25,668 bases of DNA from the IMG/VR virus record IMGVR_UViG_3300028800_000293, positions 1-25,668 of that record. One strand, given 5' to 3'. Under the pieces are notes generated by a model. That model saw only the letters and a program-made list of their open reading frames with translations, made no database searches and was not told the origin of the DNA. Made by a program: the position numbers and the translations under genes. Positions 4,637 to 24,151 of this stretch are shown here, one piece after another (the stretch's first letter is position 1; every line of letters starts with the position of its first letter). Origin of the DNA: a virus.

Positions 4637-6177
4637 ACTTTCCGTGGACCGTTGCGGAGCGTTCCGTACAGACCAAGGAAGATGTACGGGCGAAACTTCG
4701 CAATTTTGATTACTATCGCGAAAAGTTTCTATGTGTACGTCCGCGTAAAGGCGGCGAACGCATACCGTTCATTCTAAACAATGCACAACGCGTTTTGCAT
4801 GCCCGGATAGAGCGTGAGCGCGAAGTGTTCGGCATGGTGCGTGCGCTTATTCCAAAAGCACGGCGGATGGGCGTCAGTACGTATGTAGGTGGCCGTTTCT
4901 TCCATCAGACTGCAACCATGTTTGGTCGCAGGGCTCAAGTTATTGCGCATCGTGCGGATAGCGCGCGTAATTTGCATCGTGAAATTAAGGAATTTGCCGC
5001 TGGGCTGCCGCCAGCCGTACGCCCGTCTATTGGTGCCACTAATGCTCAAGAGCTGATTTTCGACAGGCTAAAGTCTCTGTACAAAGTATCATCGGCCGAT
5101 GGCGGCGATATCGGCCGTTCTGACGATTTTCATTTGCTGCACATGTCCGAAGCGGCGCTTTTTGAAAACGTCGAAGATTTGTCGTCCGGGTTGCTTAAAA
5201 CAGTTTCAAGCCTACCCGGTACTGAGATTGCGATGGAAAGCACCGGCAATGGTCAGTCCGGTATGTTTTTCAATATGTGTGAACAAGCAAACGCGGACGG
5301 CAATAAAGGTGAGTGGCGCATTCATTTTCTGCCGTGGTCTTTGATGCCTGAATATCGTACGGCAGTTCCAGTTGGCTGGAGGGCACCAAAAGATTTTGAG
5401 GATTATGCACAACTGCATCAGCTCGACCGTGAGCAACTTTACTGGTTTTGGAGAGAAAACTATTCGCTGGCAACAATGAACGGCGGGCAGCCTGAGACGA
5501 TTCATAGGCTAACGCGTCAAGAGTTCCCGGCCGTTTATAGTGAATGCTTCATGGCCGACAGTACGCTGGATTTCTACCCGGCGTCGCTGGTTGTCGCGGC
5601 CATGACCAACAAGCCAGCGCCGTCCGCTGGTGCGTTGAAATTGCTTTGCGTGGACCCAGCAGGGGACGGTCAGGATAAACCATTCGTGTGTGACCGGCAG
5701 GGTTCCGCGATCGGCGCGCGGGTGTGGGGTGAACTGGCCAGCCGGGACGGCAATGTGGCCTCGGACTGGTTGGTGACGACGTTCAAGCGTTTTGATATGG
5801 ATGCTATTCTCATTGACGGAACTGGCGGCTACGGGCGCGACCTGGTTGCCGGCTGCAGGCTTCGCATGCGCTCGCTGGGGCCTGAAAAGATCGTGCCCGT
5901 CATTTTCAGTCACGGCGCCAACAACTCTGTTATGTACGGCAACAGGCGTGCGGAGTTGCACGATAAGTTGTTGCGCTGGCTCGGCGGCAACGTGTCGATG
6001 CCGAACGACAAGATGGCGCAAGAGGAAGCAGCGGCGTACAAGTGGGGCCGTCAAGGTTGCCACCGTGACGAGAAAGCGCGGCTGTTCATGACGCCGAAAG
6101 AGACGATCAGGAAAGAATTAAGTCGTTCGCCGGATCGCTGGGACTGCTGCGCTATTTCGATGGCGATTGAGGGTTGA
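4633..6177 (+). CDS. terL: Terminase large subunit (DNA packaging ATPase/nuclease)
   Basis: A 514-residue protein starting at the GTG overlapping the holin-like stop. It pumps phage DNA into the procapsid and cuts it. The ATPase half shows a Walker A-like KARRMGVST at about 75-83, then a Walker B region FHLLHMSEAALFE at about 166-178 with the catalytic Glu after the Asp-substituted MSE, and a coupling-motif-like MESTGNGQSG at about 201-210. The nuclease half shows CVDPAGDGQDK (Asp about 341), ILIDGTGGYG (Asp about 395) and a terminal DRWDCCAISMAI. The length is typical. No small terminase subunit was recognised nearby. The next genes are on the other strand, so this ends the rightward late block. 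Confidence 0.9.
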   Translation: MNFPWTVAERSVQTKEDVRAKLRNFDYYREKFLCVRPRKGGERIPFILNNAQRVLHARIEREREVFGMVRALIPKARRMGVSTYVGGRFFHQTATMFGRRAQVIAHRADSARNLHREIKEFAAGLPPAVRPSIGATNAQELIFDRLKSLYKVSSADGGDIGRSDDFHLLHMSEAALFENVEDLSSGLLKTVSSLPGTEIAMESTGNGQSGMFFNMCEQANADGNKGEWRIHFLPWSLMPEYRTAVPVGWRAPKDFEDYAQLHQLDREQLYWFWRENYSLATMNGGQPETIHRLTRQEFPAVYSECFMADSTLDFYPASLVVAAMTNKPAPSAGALKLLCVDPAGDGQDKPFVCDRQGSAIGARVWGELASRDGNVASDWLVTTFKRFDMDAILIDGTGGYGRDLVAGCRLRMRSLGPEKIVPVIFSHGANNSVMYGNRRAELHDKLLRWLGGNVSMPNDKMAQEEAAAYKWGRQGCHRDEKARLFMTPKETIRKELSRSPDRWDCCAISMAIEG

Positions 6178-6209
6178 GGGCAGCGGCAGCATCATCGGGG
6201 CCGTGGCCA

Positions 6210-6401
6210 TCAGAGGCACCCAGGACGACGGTGGCACCATTCCCCATCTTCTTGGTAGATGCGCCAGCCTTCGGCCTTGGCCCCTTCAATGAAGGCATCC
6301 CAGAATGCCGGGCACGCACTCGCGTCGCTTGGGCCTTCGTAGCCTTCGCCGCAATCATCGCAGACCATGACGGGTTTGCCGTACTGCTTATCGATCGACA
6401 T
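6210..6401 (-). CDS. Small Cys-rich, possible zinc-binding protein
   Basis: A 63-residue protein with GTGAGGACAACGA ahead of the ATG, a reasonable ribosome binding site. Cysteines occur as CDDCGEG (about 14-17), a further C near residue 30 (ASACPAFWDAF) and WCHRRPGC at the end, which together could hold zinc. The AFxxGAKAEGWRIYQEDGEWCH segment resembles short phage proteins of unknown role. It is the last gene of a leftward group of very small genes after 6698. No function can be assigned. Confidence 0.65.
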   Translation of the reverse strand: MSIDKQYGKPVMVCDDCGEGYEGPSDASACPAFWDAFIEGAKAEGWRIYQEDGEWCHRRPGCL

Positions 6402-6489
6402 TCGTTGTCCTCACTGGCGCGTCCGAACGCTGGCCCACAAGCTGGCGCGCGCAATTCGAGGCACACCTGCTCGATTATTTGATTGCCGG

Positions 6490-6570
6490 TCAGCAGCCGC
6501 GCGGCCTGCCTGCGGCGTACCGTTCGAATGCGGCGTCCACCTCTTCCTTGCTCGGCTCGCGGTCGGTCAT
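6490..6570 (-). CDS. 26-residue peptide, translationally coupled
   Basis: ATG at 6570 overlaps the stop of the gene upstream (AAATGA), and TGA lies at 6490-6492. The product begins MTDREPSKEEVDAAFERYAAGR and is charged and probably helical. The overlap is the main reason to call it. The stretch between this stop and the next start at 6401 is about 88 bp. A frame that continues with LLTGNQIIEQV exists there but has no start or clear end, so a longer ancestral gene broken by a frameshift is possible. Confidence 0.4.
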   Translation of the reverse strand: MTDREPSKEEVDAAFERYAAGRPRGC

Positions 6571-14093: not shown

Positions 14094-14123
14094 AGGGGCC
14101 TCCGGTCGGAGGCCCCTATTTTC
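14094..14123 (+). terminator. Strong intrinsic terminator after the capsid gene
   Basis: AGGGGCCTCC (14094-14103) pairs with GGAGGCCCCT (14108-14117) around a GGTC tetraloop, followed by ATTTTC. It should end most capsid transcripts, giving high capsid and lower tail-gene expression. Confidence 0.9.
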
Positions 14124-19983: not shown

Positions 19984-21284
19984 GGCGTGTTCCAAGGAAA
20001 CGGCGTTTTTGGTGGCGCATCCCAAGGCATTTGCAGGTTAAGGCGGCGTTTTATATCAGCTACGTACTGCGCCTCGCGCTCGCAAAGGATTGCATTGAAG
20101 CCTTCCAGCGCACATGCGGCGCCAGTCGTGCCCGATCCCGCGAATGGGTCCAGCACCGTTCCGCCTGGTGGTGTAGTGAGCCGCGCGAGCCACTGCATAA
20201 GCGACACGGGCTTGACTGTGGGGTGTTTACTGCCGGCGCGGTCGGCTTTTGAGGCTTTGGCGCTGTAAAAGAACCGCGCGGCGGAGCCGGAGTCGCCGCG
20301 CGGTTCTGCTCGAGGTCTAGGCCCGACACCGTTATTGTAGACGTTGCGTCGTGATGTTTGGCCGTCAACTACGCCTTGCTGCCCCGCACTTTGCGGAAAC
20401 GCCTCGACCACCTCCGCAGAGCCGTCATGGCACACGTTCGCGGGCCAACGTCCGTTAGCGTTTCCAGACTGCGGAACTTGACCATCTCCCTTTTTCTGAC
20501 CGCGCCACATATGATTCGGATCGCTACCGCCCGCGCCGTTCGGATACGAGTATGGTTGTTCACCGTCCGCAAGTCCTATCCGACTCGCGTCAATATTCAA
20601 CGCTCCCGTACGCCAGCGCAGCACATTCGCCGCAACGGTAGGCTCGGACAGCGGCTTGCGCGCAAGCACGATTGGTTCGAATGCGGGCTTTAGCGCAGTG
20701 CCCCATCCATCCCATTCGGCGGCTTGTGATGTGATTCCGGTCGGCTTTACATAGTCGGGATGGTCGCTGCGAAACTTGCTGCCGCCGTTTGATTTATATT
20801 TATATTTATATCCGGCACCGAGTCCAGCGACGTTAAATCTGTGGCTGTCGTGCCCGCGCACGCCCGCTGCCTTGTCTATACCTTTCGACACATTATGCGA
20901 CTTGGGAAATCCGGTTCCGTACAGCCACGCCAACGAATCGCGAATTTCAAAACCTGCGTCCTCGATCGCGCACGCCATCCGATGATAACCACGCGTTGCT
21001 CCGAACGCGACCAGGAAAGCCCCCGGTTTTAGTACGCGCCATACCTCCGCCCAAAACGCAGGCGACATGGCGCATTCGCCCGTGTCCCATTGCTGACCCG
21101 TGAAACCGGCGGACGCGCGCATGTACGCTTCGTTGCCGCGAGCTGGCGCCGCGTTCAGTGCGCCGAACCGTTTCACTATGGACACGAGCGCATAGGGCGG
21201 ATCAGTGACGCAGGAATCTATGGAATCGGAAGCGATGCCGCGCAGTGTTTCTCTGCAATCGCCTTCCAACAAACGTACGCTCAT
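19980..21284 (-). CDS. DNA methyltransferase, beta-type order (DPPY before FAGSGTTG)
   Basis: A 434-residue AdoMet-dependent DNA amino-methyltransferase. The start at 21284 overlaps the polymerase stop (ATGA). The catalytic DPPY lies at residues 28-31 in SIDSCVTDPPYAL, and the AdoMet site VLDPFAGSGTTGAACALEGF near the C-terminus, preceded by SKHPTVKPVSLMQWLARLT. This IV-then-I order is the beta group. A long middle region, about residues 100-330, with KYKYKSNGG and many Gly/Ser, is the target recognition part. DPPY fits N6-adenine or N4-cytosine methylation. No restriction partner is seen, so it probably protects phage DNA or marks replication. Confidence 0.9.
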   Translation of the reverse strand: MSVRLLEGDCRETLRGIASDSIDSCVTDPPYALVSIVKRFGALNAAPARGNEAYMRASAGFTGQQWDTGECAMSPAFWAEVWRVLKPGAFLVAFGATRGYHRMACAIEDAGFEIRDSLAWLYGTGFPKSHNVSKGIDKAAGVRGHDSHRFNVAGLGAGYKYKYKSNGGSKFRSDHPDYVKPTGITSQAAEWDGWGTALKPAFEPIVLARKPLSEPTVAANVLRWRTGALNIDASRIGLADGEQPYSYPNGAGGSDPNHMWRGQKKGDGQVPQSGNANGRWPANVCHDGSAEVVEAFPQSAGQQGVVDGQTSRRNVYNNGVGPRPRAEPRGDSGSAARFFYSAKASKADRAGSKHPTVKPVSLMQWLARLTTPPGGTVLDPFAGSGTTGAACALEGFNAILCEREAQYVADIKRRLNLQMPWDAPPKTPFPWNTP

Positions 21285-23218
21285 TTCCGCATTCTTTCGC
21301 TCTCGTACCCTTCGCAATCCAGTGGCAGTCCAGAAGTCCAATGACGTGGACGCTTCATGATATCGCGCATCTGCGCGGATCGTACAGCAGCCACGTCCGT
21401 ACGCGCAAGAGCCAAAATCGAATCATAGACATCAAGAATCAAAACAACGTCCGGCAGTTCGCGTTCAATGTCGGCTTCGGCCGCCGTCACCAGGTCGCGC
21501 GTCATGGACTGGCAGGCAATTTCCAGCAGCGAACCGCCAAACGCCTTTTGTCGAAGCATGGCGCCGAACTTGCCACGAAAGAACGCCATTTCGCCGCCGT
21601 ACGTGATGTGTGCCGAGTAGTGCGGCACGGCGCGGCCGGATGGCAACAGCATCCAAACCGTGCCGTGCGCGTCTTTCTGAAATGCGACTTTGCCGGCAGG
21701 GAAAATGCGACCCGGTTGTTCGTAGATCGCAAACTTAAAAGCGTCAGCCAGCGCGTACCACAGTGAAACTAGCAGCGGATTTGCCTGGCGATAGCCGTCA
21801 ATATCCGAGCGGGCTTTGATTTCGTCCATGTTATTGCCGGCGCGGCGTTGGTGCGCCATGTACGTGCGATACCCAAGCTGATAGTTACCGCCGAGCGTCA
21901 CGGATTTGTAGCTCTGCCGCTCGTGCGGATGCGTCTTTTTGGTAGAACCCGGCGGACAGCGTCCCATTGCGATGGCGTTGTATATGTACGGATCGCCGCC
22001 CGTCGCCAGCACGTTCAAGCGGTCGGTATCACCAGCCATCCAAAGCGCAATGCGGTATTCTGCATTTGACAGGTCGTTGTCGCAAACCATCCAGCCCGGC
22101 GGCGCTACGATCATCCCCCGCAGACAGTCGGTTAACGCGACGTTGTCGTACCGGAATCCGCCTTTAAGCCCGGCTATGACGCTATCGATCGTTGGGCGCC
22201 CATCCTGCCCGTCGTACTTGCCGGACGGTCGCGCAATGTTGAAGGTATTGACGCCTTCGGACGTACCCCGGCCTGATCGCGCGCCGAAGTACCGGGTTGC
22301 GTCTTTGTAAAAACCGTTAACGTGGCGATCTAACAATGCCTGCGCTTTAAGCGGTGCCGAGCCGCCTTCGGATTGTAGCAGTTCCAAAACAATCCGTACG
22401 TCAGGGTGCAGGTTTTCGTCAGTCAGTTTTTCCGCAATGATGTGCTTCTGTGTGCTCTCCAGCCCGGCGGCGCGGTTGCCGCTATTGCACCATTCGAGTA
22501 TGCGTGTGCGCTGCGATAGCTTGGTGACCGCGTTCTGCGTCAGTTCCATAAGAATCGCAGTGCTCTCTTGCTCGATTTCCTGCCGCCGCATGGCAATGGC
22601 GGTCGCCAGGTGAACGTCGATCGGAAGCCCGATTTCATTCTTACGCCATGTACGCTCAAAGATCAGACGCTCATCCGGTGTCAACGACGGCAATCGGCCA
22701 TCCAGCTCGATCAGACAACTAACGTCCTGCCGGTTGTACGAAAGCAAATCGCGATAGACCTGTACGTCTTCGTTGAATGTACCGTCGCGTAACGGTTTGC
22801 ATGTTTTCATGACAAGTTCGCGCCCGCGCGGATCTTTGCCTTTGATGCCGAGTGCTGTGCAAACCTGATCCAATCCGCCGGGGAGTGCCAGCGATTGTGC
22901 GCGGCCCATCGTACAGTCAATTTTTGAAAGCGGCAGTTCTAAGAACGGATTGACCGCACGCAGGATTGAAACGTCAAAATTAGCGTGGTGGGCAACGAAC
23001 CGATGACACAACCGCACGTCGGTGTACAGGTCCGCCAGCGTGTGTGTGCCTAAATGTAGGTGTACGGGGCATGCAGTTTTCCAGACACCACGGAAGTACC
23101 AGACGACCGATGTAATGCCGGTGGACGGGTCCGCTGCATAGCGCCTAGCGCCAGCGCGTTTAAGATCGACGCGACTCCGGGTCTCAAAGTCCGCCCATAG
23201 GTCGTCGGGGTGTGGCAT
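21281..23218 (-). CDS. Family A DNA polymerase with 3'-5' exonuclease
   Basis: A 645-residue replicative polymerase. The exonuclease has D10 and E12 (WADFETRSRVDL), HHANFD at 77-82 and YNRQDV at 161-166. The polymerase has motif A DNDLSNAEYR (D382, E387, R389), motif B RQSYKSVTLGGNYQLGY (R434, K438) and motif C DVYDS (D599). Motif C reads V-Y-D-S where V-H-D-E is usual, so the histidine and glutamate are replaced while the metal-binding Asp remains. The only start is ATG 23218, as no ATG/GTG/TTG follows the upstream in-frame TAG. A hairpin lies immediately before it. The stop overlaps the methyltransferase start. Confidence 0.92.
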   Translation of the reverse strand: MPHPDDLWADFETRSRVDLKRAGARRYAADPSTGITSVVWYFRGVWKTACPVHLHLGTHTLADLYTDVRLCHRFVAHHANFDVSILRAVNPFLELPLSKIDCTMGRAQSLALPGGLDQVCTALGIKGKDPRGRELVMKTCKPLRDGTFNEDVQVYRDLLSYNRQDVSCLIELDGRLPSLTPDERLIFERTWRKNEIGLPIDVHLATAIAMRRQEIEQESTAILMELTQNAVTKLSQRTRILEWCNSGNRAAGLESTQKHIIAEKLTDENLHPDVRIVLELLQSEGGSAPLKAQALLDRHVNGFYKDATRYFGARSGRGTSEGVNTFNIARPSGKYDGQDGRPTIDSVIAGLKGGFRYDNVALTDCLRGMIVAPPGWMVCDNDLSNAEYRIALWMAGDTDRLNVLATGGDPYIYNAIAMGRCPPGSTKKTHPHERQSYKSVTLGGNYQLGYRTYMAHQRRAGNNMDEIKARSDIDGYRQANPLLVSLWYALADAFKFAIYEQPGRIFPAGKVAFQKDAHGTVWMLLPSGRAVPHYSAHITYGGEMAFFRGKFGAMLRQKAFGGSLLEIACQSMTRDLVTAAEADIERELPDVVLILDVYDSILALARTDVAAVRSAQMRDIMKRPRHWTSGLPLDCEGYESERMRK

Positions 23219-23251
23219 TGGAAAAAGCGGGGCCGAAGCCCCGCCGTCCTT
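23218..23251 (-). promoter_or_regulatory. Hairpin between Shine-Dalgarno and polymerase start
   Basis: Read leftward: AAGGA (23251-23247), then GCGGGGC-TTCG-GCCCCGC (23244-23227), TTTTTCCA and the ATG at 23218. The hairpin plus T run looks like an intrinsic terminator. Unfolded, the Shine-Dalgarno is about 28 bases from the ATG. Folded, the hairpin brings it to a normal distance, as in T4 gene 38. It can therefore act as an attenuator, a translational bridge or both. Confidence 0.65.
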
Positions 23252-23257
23252 AGAATG

Positions 23258-24076
23258 CTAGCGGCCGAATGGATTCGGCGGTGTGTTAGAAGGGAATGCA
23301 GTCGTCACATTCCCACCGGAAGCCGGACCAGCGTGGCCCGGCGCACCCCCGAATGCAGGGGCGCCCGGTGTCGGGGCAAACCCGCCTGCCGGCGGCGTAA
23401 AACCCCCACCACTCTGACCCTGCTGCGGCTGGAAGGGCTGTCCACCAGTAGGCGCACCAAAGCTGGGTGCCCCACCAAAACCGCCCGGCGACGGGCTGAA
23501 GCCCGCAGGACGCAAGCCCTGCTGTTCCGCCATCCTCATGAGTTCGGCGCCGCTGACTGAGTTGGCAAACACGATTTCTTCGCCTGGCCCGGAGAACACG
23601 ACGGCGTTAAGATATAGCTTCACGCCGCGCGGATCGTTCTGTTTGACGGCTGCTGTTACGCCAGCCATCACGTAGTCGCCGGACTTGACGCCGACCTTTT
23701 GCGTCAGCTTCGTGAGTACACCGCCGGCCTGTACGATCTCGACATTGGGCGGGTTGCCGCTCGAGGCCGAGAACAGCCAATGACCCTTGGCAAACTCGGA
23801 AGACTTGCCTTCAGGACTCGGCATGTCGCCGTCAACGACCGGCCAAGTGAGGATATGCGGATTGCTCTGATAGATTTTGCCGCACGCCGCTGTGATGCCC
23901 GCAAGTGCCGGTTCGGCAGTCCATTGCGCCACGGTCTTTTTGACCAGAAACATGGCGAAGTAGTTCGGCTTCTGCGTCTGCTGCCCCTTGTACGTCGTGC
24001 TTGGCGTCCAAAGGTGCCGCATATCCGCGATGCGTGCATTAAAGACGGTCGCGGCTTCGTATTGTCGCTGTGCCAT
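23258..24076 (-). CDS. Single-strand DNA-binding protein (phage DUF2815-like)
   Basis: A 272-residue protein. The N-terminal 170 residues form the OB-like part: FNARIADMRHLWTPSTTYKG, KPNYFAMFLVKKTVAQWTAE, GKSSEFAKGHWLFSASSG, VGVKSGDYVMAGVTAAVKQN and DPRGVKLYLNAVVFSGPGEE, the plan of phage SSBs that coat exposed strands near the polymerase. The remaining 100 residues are Gly/Pro/Phe/Ala repeats (GGFGGAPSFGAPTGG...), a disordered tail ending PNPFGR rather than the acidic tip usual in SSBs. AAAGGA precedes the ATG. The promoter at 24123-24151 serves it and the polymerase. Confidence 0.8.
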   Translation of the reverse strand: MAQRQYEAATVFNARIADMRHLWTPSTTYKGQQTQKPNYFAMFLVKKTVAQWTAEPALAGITAACGKIYQSNPHILTWPVVDGDMPSPEGKSSEFAKGHWLFSASSGNPPNVEIVQAGGVLTKLTQKVGVKSGDYVMAGVTAAVKQNDPRGVKLYLNAVVFSGPGEEIVFANSVSGAELMRMAEQQGLRPAGFSPSPGGFGGAPSFGAPTGGQPFQPQQGQSGGGFTPPAGGFAPTPGAPAFGGAPGHAGPASGGNVTTAFPSNTPPNPFGR

Positions 24077-24122
24077 TGTGTAGTTTTCCTTTTGTCAGAT
24101 TTGCCAAATAATCAACGTGCGT

Positions 24123-24151
24123 AGTGTAATTGTACGGTTAGGGTGCGTCAA
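24123..24151 (-). promoter_or_regulatory. Sigma70-like promoter for SSB/polymerase
   Basis: TTGACG (24151-24146), a 17-bp spacer, TACACT (24128-24123), pointing left to the SSB start at 24076. It lies just past the stop of the 46-residue membrane gene. Confidence 0.6.

Follow-up and report, generated by a model that had tools for sequence, protein, structure and literature searches.

A terminator-like hairpin after a phage SSB gene abuts the DNA polymerase start in one clade and may take part in polymerase translation initiation

What does a hairpin with the features of an intrinsic terminator do when it stands almost against the start codon of the next gene? The question is raised by a virus, IMG/VR record IMGVR_UViG_3300028800_000293, of which we analysed a stretch of 25,668 bases (hereafter the window). 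On its minus strand, a DUF2800/PD-(D/E)XK gene is followed by a gene for an Enc34-type single-stranded DNA-binding protein (SSB) and then by one for a DNA polymerase, and within the 39 nt that separate the last two lie a Shine-Dalgarno (SD)-like sequence, a hairpin and a run of T residues. An earlier reading of this DNA, made from the sequence only, had proposed that one element serves both as a terminator that sets the ratio of SSB to polymerase and as part of the polymerase translation start. This dual-role reading appears to be the best overall account, and comparison with relatives lends better support to its terminator side than to the split SD it invoked.

Results

A GC-rich hairpin and T-run precede the polymerase start

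The SSB gene (positions 23258..24076, minus strand) encodes a protein of 272 residues that matches Pfam PF10991 (E 7.6e-10), and ends in a TAG stop codon at 23260-23258. The polymerase gene (21281..23218, minus strand) encodes 645 residues from an ATG (23218-23216) located 8 nt past the stem. The polymerase is probably of family A; its match to Pfam DNA_pol_A is weak (E 2.5e-4; 20.6 bits, below the curated cut-off of 34.3), and in tblastn searches it was ~27-28% identical, near full length, to annotated phage DNA polymerases among the 60 of 1,501 matches listed, so that these are too distant for a comparison of junctions.

Between the two genes on the minus strand, AAGGA (23251-23247) occupies nt 7-11 past the SSB stop, 28 nt upstream of the polymerase ATG. 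There follows a terminator-like hairpin (23227..23244) with a 7-bp GC stem, composed of GCGGGGC (23244-23238), a TTCG loop (23237-23234) and GCCCCGC (23233-23227), then directly a T-run, TTTTT (23226-23222), and then CCA and the ATG. All of these parts are present on the minus strand as the sequence-only reading described them. That reading also took the ATG to be the only usable start, and indeed the upstream in-frame stop is the SSB stop, with no ATG, GTG or TTG between, leaving no alternative upstream start for the polymerase in the window. In an alignment of 18 polymerases, M1, H3 and D5 are nearly invariant and D6 is invariant.

The hairpin exceeds what chance would give. Folding of the 52-nt region yields -23.9 kcal/mol (z -3.57), a value reached by 1 of 200 dinucleotide shuffles, and in a context of 123 nt the same hairpin gives z -2.08 (4 of 200 shuffles). 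Its GC-rich stem and immediate T-run are those of an intrinsic terminator; a simple terminator scan of the window did not list it, probably because a G-U pair at the stem foot, in an 8-bp version, uses one T of the run. No known RNA family matched at the gathering threshold, and we rejected a terminator serving the opposite strand, where the T-run is absent. (Elsewhere in the window, at 14094-14117 on the plus strand, two ORFs of that strand are separated by a 10-bp hairpin, AGGGGCCTCC-GGTC-GGAGGCCCCT, with ATTTTCT behind it, which is likely a terminator.)

A terminator-like hairpin after SSB is common among relatives

Annotated phages gave no DNA match to the window at the E-value limit, and two scans of bacterial and archaeal genomes found no relative. 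Searches of IMG/VR with the polymerase and SSB returned 21, 33 and 57 loci, with contigs often repeated between them; later pattern matches included, 117 loci had a polymerase match. These loci of relatives are designated by L-numbers. Once two loci in which the polymerase N-terminus is missing (L094 and L112) and three without an SSB match (L064, L080 and L102) were left out, the remaining 112, with both, collapsed to 47 distinct SSB-gene ends, or junctions. Some of the polymerase genes are interrupted: L015 carries an in-frame insert (~5735-6522) that is intein-like by eye (it begins CFAGDTEV and ends HNC), with an overlapping frame (L015:5761-6567) that is HNH endonuclease-like by eye, and similar breaks occur in L018, L045 and loci of the same contigs. 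Pieces of the L015 insert and of the overlapping frame had no Pfam or NCBIfam match at E 0.01.

Downstream of the SSB stop we counted stems with 7 or more pairs, and T-runs of at least four T in a row, and compared the counts with dinucleotide shuffles made from the same SSB-downstream gaps. A hairpin was present 3' of the SSB stop in 38 of the 47 distinct junctions (15.2 expected), and a hairpin with a T-run in 24 (0.8 expected). In the clade described below, the stem is found in 11/11 junctions (2.9 expected) and the stem followed by a T-run in 7/11 (0.1 expected); for the other relatives the counts are 27/36 (12.3 expected) and 17/36 (0.7 expected), respectively. Stems and T-runs in excess of the shuffles mean that terminator-like hairpins commonly follow SSB in this phage family, and the absence of a hairpin in 9 of the 36 other relatives means that the family does not need it. 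Together with the stem and T-run of the window itself, the relatives therefore support the original identification of a terminator-like hairpin between SSB and polymerase.

The hairpin is found 3' of SSB even where the next gene is not the polymerase (L004, L012 and L053), and in L012 and L053 an SD after the hairpin serves, by eye, that different gene. Nine of the other relatives have a T-run and the polymerase directly next, and in seven of these a clear SD lies between hairpin and start, at -6 kcal/mol or better within -20 to -4 (L034, L041, L045, L090, L104, L106 and L109); L040 (-2.5) and L092 (-3.2) do not reach that strength. Two junctions differ in other ways: in L084 a tRNA-Asn (gtt) gene (2143-2217) stands directly after the SSB hairpin, and in L044 the terminator is absent, the SD is GGGAGG, and its stretch GGGAGGTCGTCA is able to base-pair with polymerase codons close to the start, placing the ATG in a loop.

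In one clade the hairpin abuts a start codon

In 11 of the junctions, the window included (13 contigs), an ATG lies 7, 8 or 9 nt past the end of the core stem. In a tree of the 47 polymerases (N-terminal 560 residues or less) these 11 make up one side of one branch (SH-aLRT 94, not starred, from a quick method without bootstrap), and on this tree the abutting form is a single change, with a single origin. The neighbours of the clade are L039 and other hairpin-bearing relatives; labels outside the clade were set by hand before the rule-based count, and some labelled as having terminator and SD lack a T-run (for example L013, L020, L099 and L111). The nearest outgroup, L039, is a borderline case whose hairpin ends 10 nt before the chosen start, with no T-run and with an SD in the 3' arm; counting it in gives 12/12 on the next branch, with support of 89. 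DNA-pattern searches for extra clade members returned only known contigs and L118, L119 and L120, of which L119 and L120 were rejected because tblastn found no polymerase in them, and L118, with neither a polymerase nor an SSB match, was treated as chance. An assembly artefact is unlikely, since the hairpin is at the same place in 10 other distinct junctions on 12 other contigs.

The gene behind the abutting hairpin is the polymerase in 10 of the 11 junctions. In L004 it is a 128-aa HNH gene (L004:3609-3992; Pfam HNH, 1.6e-5) that stands at the polymerase initiator and starts as hairpin-TTTTTCC-ATG; the L004 polymerase most likely begins at a GTG overlapping the HNH stop. That the HNH gene took over exactly this start means that the hairpin there has remained with the end of SSB. 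Stop-codon read-through from SSB into the polymerase was rejected as an explanation: the two genes are in frame in the window (39 nt), but the gaps in the clade are 39, 40, 41, 42, 43 and 57 nt, and the SSB-polymerase frame is not conserved.

Core stems were set by hand. (Note that a longest-pairing rule extends the stem to within 1-2 nt of the start in L003, L005 and L006, and that a T-run rule places its end 12 nt upstream of the start in L002, L011 and L022.) Pairing in the stem is kept through two-sided changes: pair 7 is C-G, G-C or A-U, pair 2 is C-G or G-C and pair 3 is G-C or A-U, the latter two co-varying between GCGGGG and GGAGGGG types. As judged from these comparisons, the hairpin is inherited, and the parts that are constant in the clade are the stem and its distance to the start. 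The T-run is not among them. In four of the 11 junctions (L015, L002, L011 and L022) it is degraded, with no four T in a row, and the terminator scores of L002, L011 and L022 are -8.7, -11.1 and 7.4 (by a formula whose shuffles keep single-base composition only), so that termination is not strictly conserved. In particular, L015 has a perfect stem of 8 bp, whose end is 7 nt from the ATG, yet no full T-run (TTTCACC) and no SD. All 11 linkers from stem to start contain at least three T in a row.

The loops differ most. Nine different loops of 3-18 nt occur among the 11 junctions, in hairpins of 18-40 nt, and only TTCG (window and L005) and CTAAAAA (L015 and L004) are common to two junctions. This bears on the idea that the hairpin is an RNA operator through which the polymerase or SSB represses its own synthesis. 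The location, before a phage DNA polymerase start and after SSB, invites the idea, and there are precedents in phage T4, whose gp43 and gp32 repress themselves through RNA operators (PMC3014915). However, the gp43 operators of T4 and RB69 have an identical loop, according to the same source, whereas the nine loops seen here leave no conserved loop of the T4 gp43 type. Moreover, the stem sequence has changed, and a hairpin also follows SSB where another gene is next, as in L004, L012 and L053. We consider such an operator extremely unlikely.

A promoter-like site precedes SSB

Upstream of SSB in the window we found a candidate sigma-70-type promoter (24123..24151, minus strand; TTGACG-17-TACACT, with the spacer motif ACCGTAC) and an SD, AAAAGGAA (24086..24093, minus strand; duplex energy -5.8). 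This promoter-like site is the sole match in the window to TTGAC-N8-ACCGTAC-N3-TAYANT with up to three mismatches. A TTGAC-17/18-TA(C/T/A)ANT site is found in all 10 clade members with enough sequence, 42-52 nt upstream of the SSB start; altogether 12 of 44 loci have a match, where single-base shuffles predict 0.04, the count being made without L003, L054 and L106, which are too short. None of the same 44 loci has such a site in the 300 nt before the polymerase. The spacer contains CCGTAC in eight of the 10 (the window, L002, L004, L006, L009, L011, L015 and L022) and CCGTAT in L021, and is different in L005; the CCGTAC motif may be an operator or activator site. The promoter-like site makes SSB likely to be a transcription unit of its own, and we infer that the polymerase is transcribed by read-through from this site or from an upstream promoter. 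The presence of the site before SSB in 10/10 clade members with enough sequence, with none before the polymerase in 44 loci, makes a role of the hairpin in the SSB:polymerase ratio plausible.

The clade lacks a Shine-Dalgarno sequence near the start and varies in the one before the stem

As the sequence-only reading had implied, the polymerase has no SD at normal spacing. Within -20 to -4 the mean SD strength is -1.2 kcal/mol in the clade (n=10), compared with -6.4 in 20 other relatives (rank test p 8e-5, with relatedness ignored), and the best clade value, -5.1, lies in the 3' arm of L002. In these 20 relatives the polymerase directly follows SSB, the start codons were hand-chosen, and two (L042 and L046) have no gap that could hold a hairpin; because in L004 the hairpin stands before the HNH gene, that locus was excluded. 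Weak starts are found elsewhere in the window too: 7 of 28 other ORF starts are as weak as that of the polymerase or weaker, and six of the seven are GTG or TTG and perhaps not real starts. One conceivable function of the hairpin is mainly to protect the 3' end of the SSB message, or to serve as its processing site, with the polymerase unaffected. A stable GC hairpin directly after what is likely an abundant gene would suit this function, which would nevertheless leave both the kept distance to the start and the missing SD unexplained, and we regard it as very unlikely.

Since SD values taken over a wide upstream region include the G-rich arm of the stem, we scored the segment before the core stem separately, which resolves this. 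An SD match is present there in the window (-4.8 kcal/mol), L003 (-5.8), L005 (-5.9) and L006 (-4.3). The match is weak in L021 (-3.3) and absent in L009 (-0.5) and L015 (-0.4), two junctions with a perfect stem; L004 gives -0.5. In L002, L011 and L022 the segment gives ~-2, and -10.9 when eight stem bases are added; the strong match there takes in the 5' foot of the stem. The SD is thus not conserved together with the hairpin in close relatives: among 10 it is clear in four, runs into the stem in three, is weak in one and is absent in two.

These values bear on a split ribosome binding site, in which approach of a distant SD through folding of the hairpin would be the conserved function, as in T4 genes 38 and 25. 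In T4, folding reduces the spacing from 22 to 5 nt (gene 38) and from 27 to 11 nt (gene 25) (PMC3014915). The window has this geometry, a distant SD with a hairpin between and a folded spacing within ~5-11 nt: with the 18-nt hairpin folded out, 28 nt becomes 10 nt, near the T4 values. By hand count, L003, L005 and L006 fit as well, at ~7-9 nt. The likeness to gene 38 that the sequence-only reading drew is therefore partly supported: it fits these four (SD of -4.3 to -5.9 before the stem), but not L009 and L015, which have no SD there, L021, where it is weak, or L002, L011 and L022, where it runs into the stem. In addition, the SD region is paired in the minimum-energy folds of the window and of L003, L005 and L006, either to the linker or to codons early in the polymerase gene. 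In the window, GGA of the SD pairs with UCC before the ATG, and the ATG pairs with GCAUU at the SSB stop; with both paired, the predicted fold does not present the SD. The claim that folding gives the SD normal spacing holds as arithmetic for the window, but in its predicted fold the SD is paired. As the conserved function of the hairpin, a split site is in our judgement quite unlikely.

The same variation can be turned to another account, namely that a plain terminator came by chance to lie beside the polymerase start and has no translational role, the ribosome using an SD-less start by means of the U-containing linker (S1-type) and the AUG. A hairpin with a T-run after SSB is, after all, common in the family (24/47), the SD before the stem is absent in L009 and L015 and weak in L021, other ORF starts in the window also score weakly, and all 11 linkers have at least three T in a row; there is precedent in the finding that A/U-rich stretches can enhance the translation of coupled genes downstream, with S1 the likely mediator (PMC12548453). 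A pure terminator, however, would not predict that the spacing of 7-9 nt persists despite decay of the T-run in 4/11 junctions, and a strong SD lies before the stem or runs into its foot in 7/10. We therefore think this account somewhat unlikely.

Covering the SSB stop is predicted to open the region before the start

In the clade the SSB stop lies 8-13 nt from the stem (13 nt in the window). The distance is 11-13 nt in the seven members with a T-run, whereas the 17 other relatives that have one show a median of 19 (p 0.006, in a rank test that ignores relatedness and was conceived after seeing the numbers). Distances of this order matter to termination: Li et al. found that termination was <10% with a stop codon 5 bp before the terminator and ~90% at 28 bp, the reason given being that 10-15 or more free nt are needed for termination (PMC4824070).

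In a folding model we covered the SSB stop and 10 nt, imitating a ribosome, and compared unpaired probabilities. The unpaired probability of the window ATG rose from 0.01 in free RNA to 0.98 with the stop covered, and the core stem stayed. Over ten clade junctions, that of the nucleotides from -8 to -1 rose from 0.38 to 0.75, compared with 0.43 to 0.49 in 18 relatives (means added by hand). The ATG itself is already unpaired with a probability of 0.44-0.97 in the free RNA of the other nine clade junctions, and in L011 covering the stop lowers it from 0.44 to 0.25. The free-RNA mean for the ATG is 0.71 in the clade, above the 0.53 of the 18 relatives; in this model, then, the ATG is clade-wide not more hidden than in relatives, and is hidden only in the window.

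The pairing of the segment before the stem exceeded shuffles weakly overall (combined p of 0.019 by energy and 0.069 by linker pairing, with rows that are related) and did not exceed them in L009, L015 and L021, so that the sign of selection for this lower pairing is weak. When segments were exchanged between members in the model, the native segment was favoured in L003, L005, L006 and the window, and most foreign segments paired better in L009, L015 and L021 (8, 9 and 7 of 9, respectively). Because an SD and lower pairing come from the same purines, sequence alone cannot separate the two.

Published distances bear on what a ribosome at the SSB stop could do. Reinitiation was nearly lost by ~20 nt in one study (PMC10666635), and the gap of 39 nt here, beyond that limit, counts against coupling. 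In a review, coupling drops ~3- to 10-fold as the spacing rises to ~+40 (PMC12548453). Coupling through RNA unfolding may occur at +39 nt.

Discussion

Our preferred reading is that the hairpin is the intrinsic terminator of SSB, which in one clade has come to stand against the polymerase start and there is also part of its translation initiation region, with read-through and with coupling to SSB translation; we put its probability at about 0.48. What the comparison shows is an inherited hairpin, a core stem held 7-9 nt from the start, and loss in the clade of the SD that relatives have between terminator and start. Under the preferred reading, part of transcription would stop at the T-run, giving more SSB message than polymerase message. 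In the message that reads through, pairing below the core stem would hide the stretch immediately upstream of the polymerase start. A ribosome that finishes SSB translation, 8-13 nt short of the stem, would weaken this lower pairing, and would weaken termination also, so that polymerase synthesis would follow SSB translation. In the window, help may also come from the distant SD, drawn close by folding of the core stem, a step that would be optional in the clade.

A bolder version holds that the one hairpin is both the SSB terminator and the gate of polymerase translation, with the ribosome finishing SSB as the switch for both: stationed 8-13 nt short of the stem, it would weaken termination and free the polymerase start, each round of SSB translation licensing transcription and translation of the polymerase. 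It is an improbable proposition as we see it, and one with a consequence: if it were true, and if SSB in excess represses its own translation, polymerase output would fall too.

The arrangement, which on the tree arose once, would be a compact means of setting how much of each of two replication proteins is made, all from a single gap of 39 nt. Natural variants in the clade separate its parts, with the T-run lost, the SD lost, the SD within the stem, or the start taken by an HNH gene. They allow one to ask which parts of an overlapping terminator and start matter, and whether an SD-less AUG 7 nt past a stem is usable.

Among the open-licence literature matches listed, we recognised no description of a terminator fused to a downstream start in this manner; several known systems share some of its features. 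At the 5' end of T4 mobE, between nrdA and nrdB, a weak terminator has been described whose partial read-through is proposed to coordinate both ribonucleotide reductase subunits (PMC2988022). That terminator resembles the present one in its GC stem, its T-run and the proposal of read-through for two proteins. In contrast, the hairpin here is noncoding and stands against the next start, with no SD intervening. Translational coupling by RNA unfolding (PMC12548453) is similar in having pairing near a downstream start that an upstream ribosome could open, across a gap of ~40 nt, but here the core stem lies beyond the stop codon and would be only partly reached. The T4 gene 43 operator is likewise a hairpin upstream of a phage DNA polymerase start; unlike it, the present hairpin has terminator features and no common loop, and precedes a polymerase that is probably of family A.

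The nearest precedent on the side of translation is provided by T4 genes 25 and 38, in which a hairpin lies between a distant SD and the AUG. The split form of gene 25 is confined to close T-even phages (PMC3014915), a narrow spread like that of the abutting form within one clade. The differences are that the hairpin here is terminator-like, with a T-run, and follows a promoter-SSB unit, and that a clear SD before the core stem is found in only 4/10 clade members. Because the clade does not keep the SD, we do not place it with the T4 split-SD genes; the window itself may work as they do.
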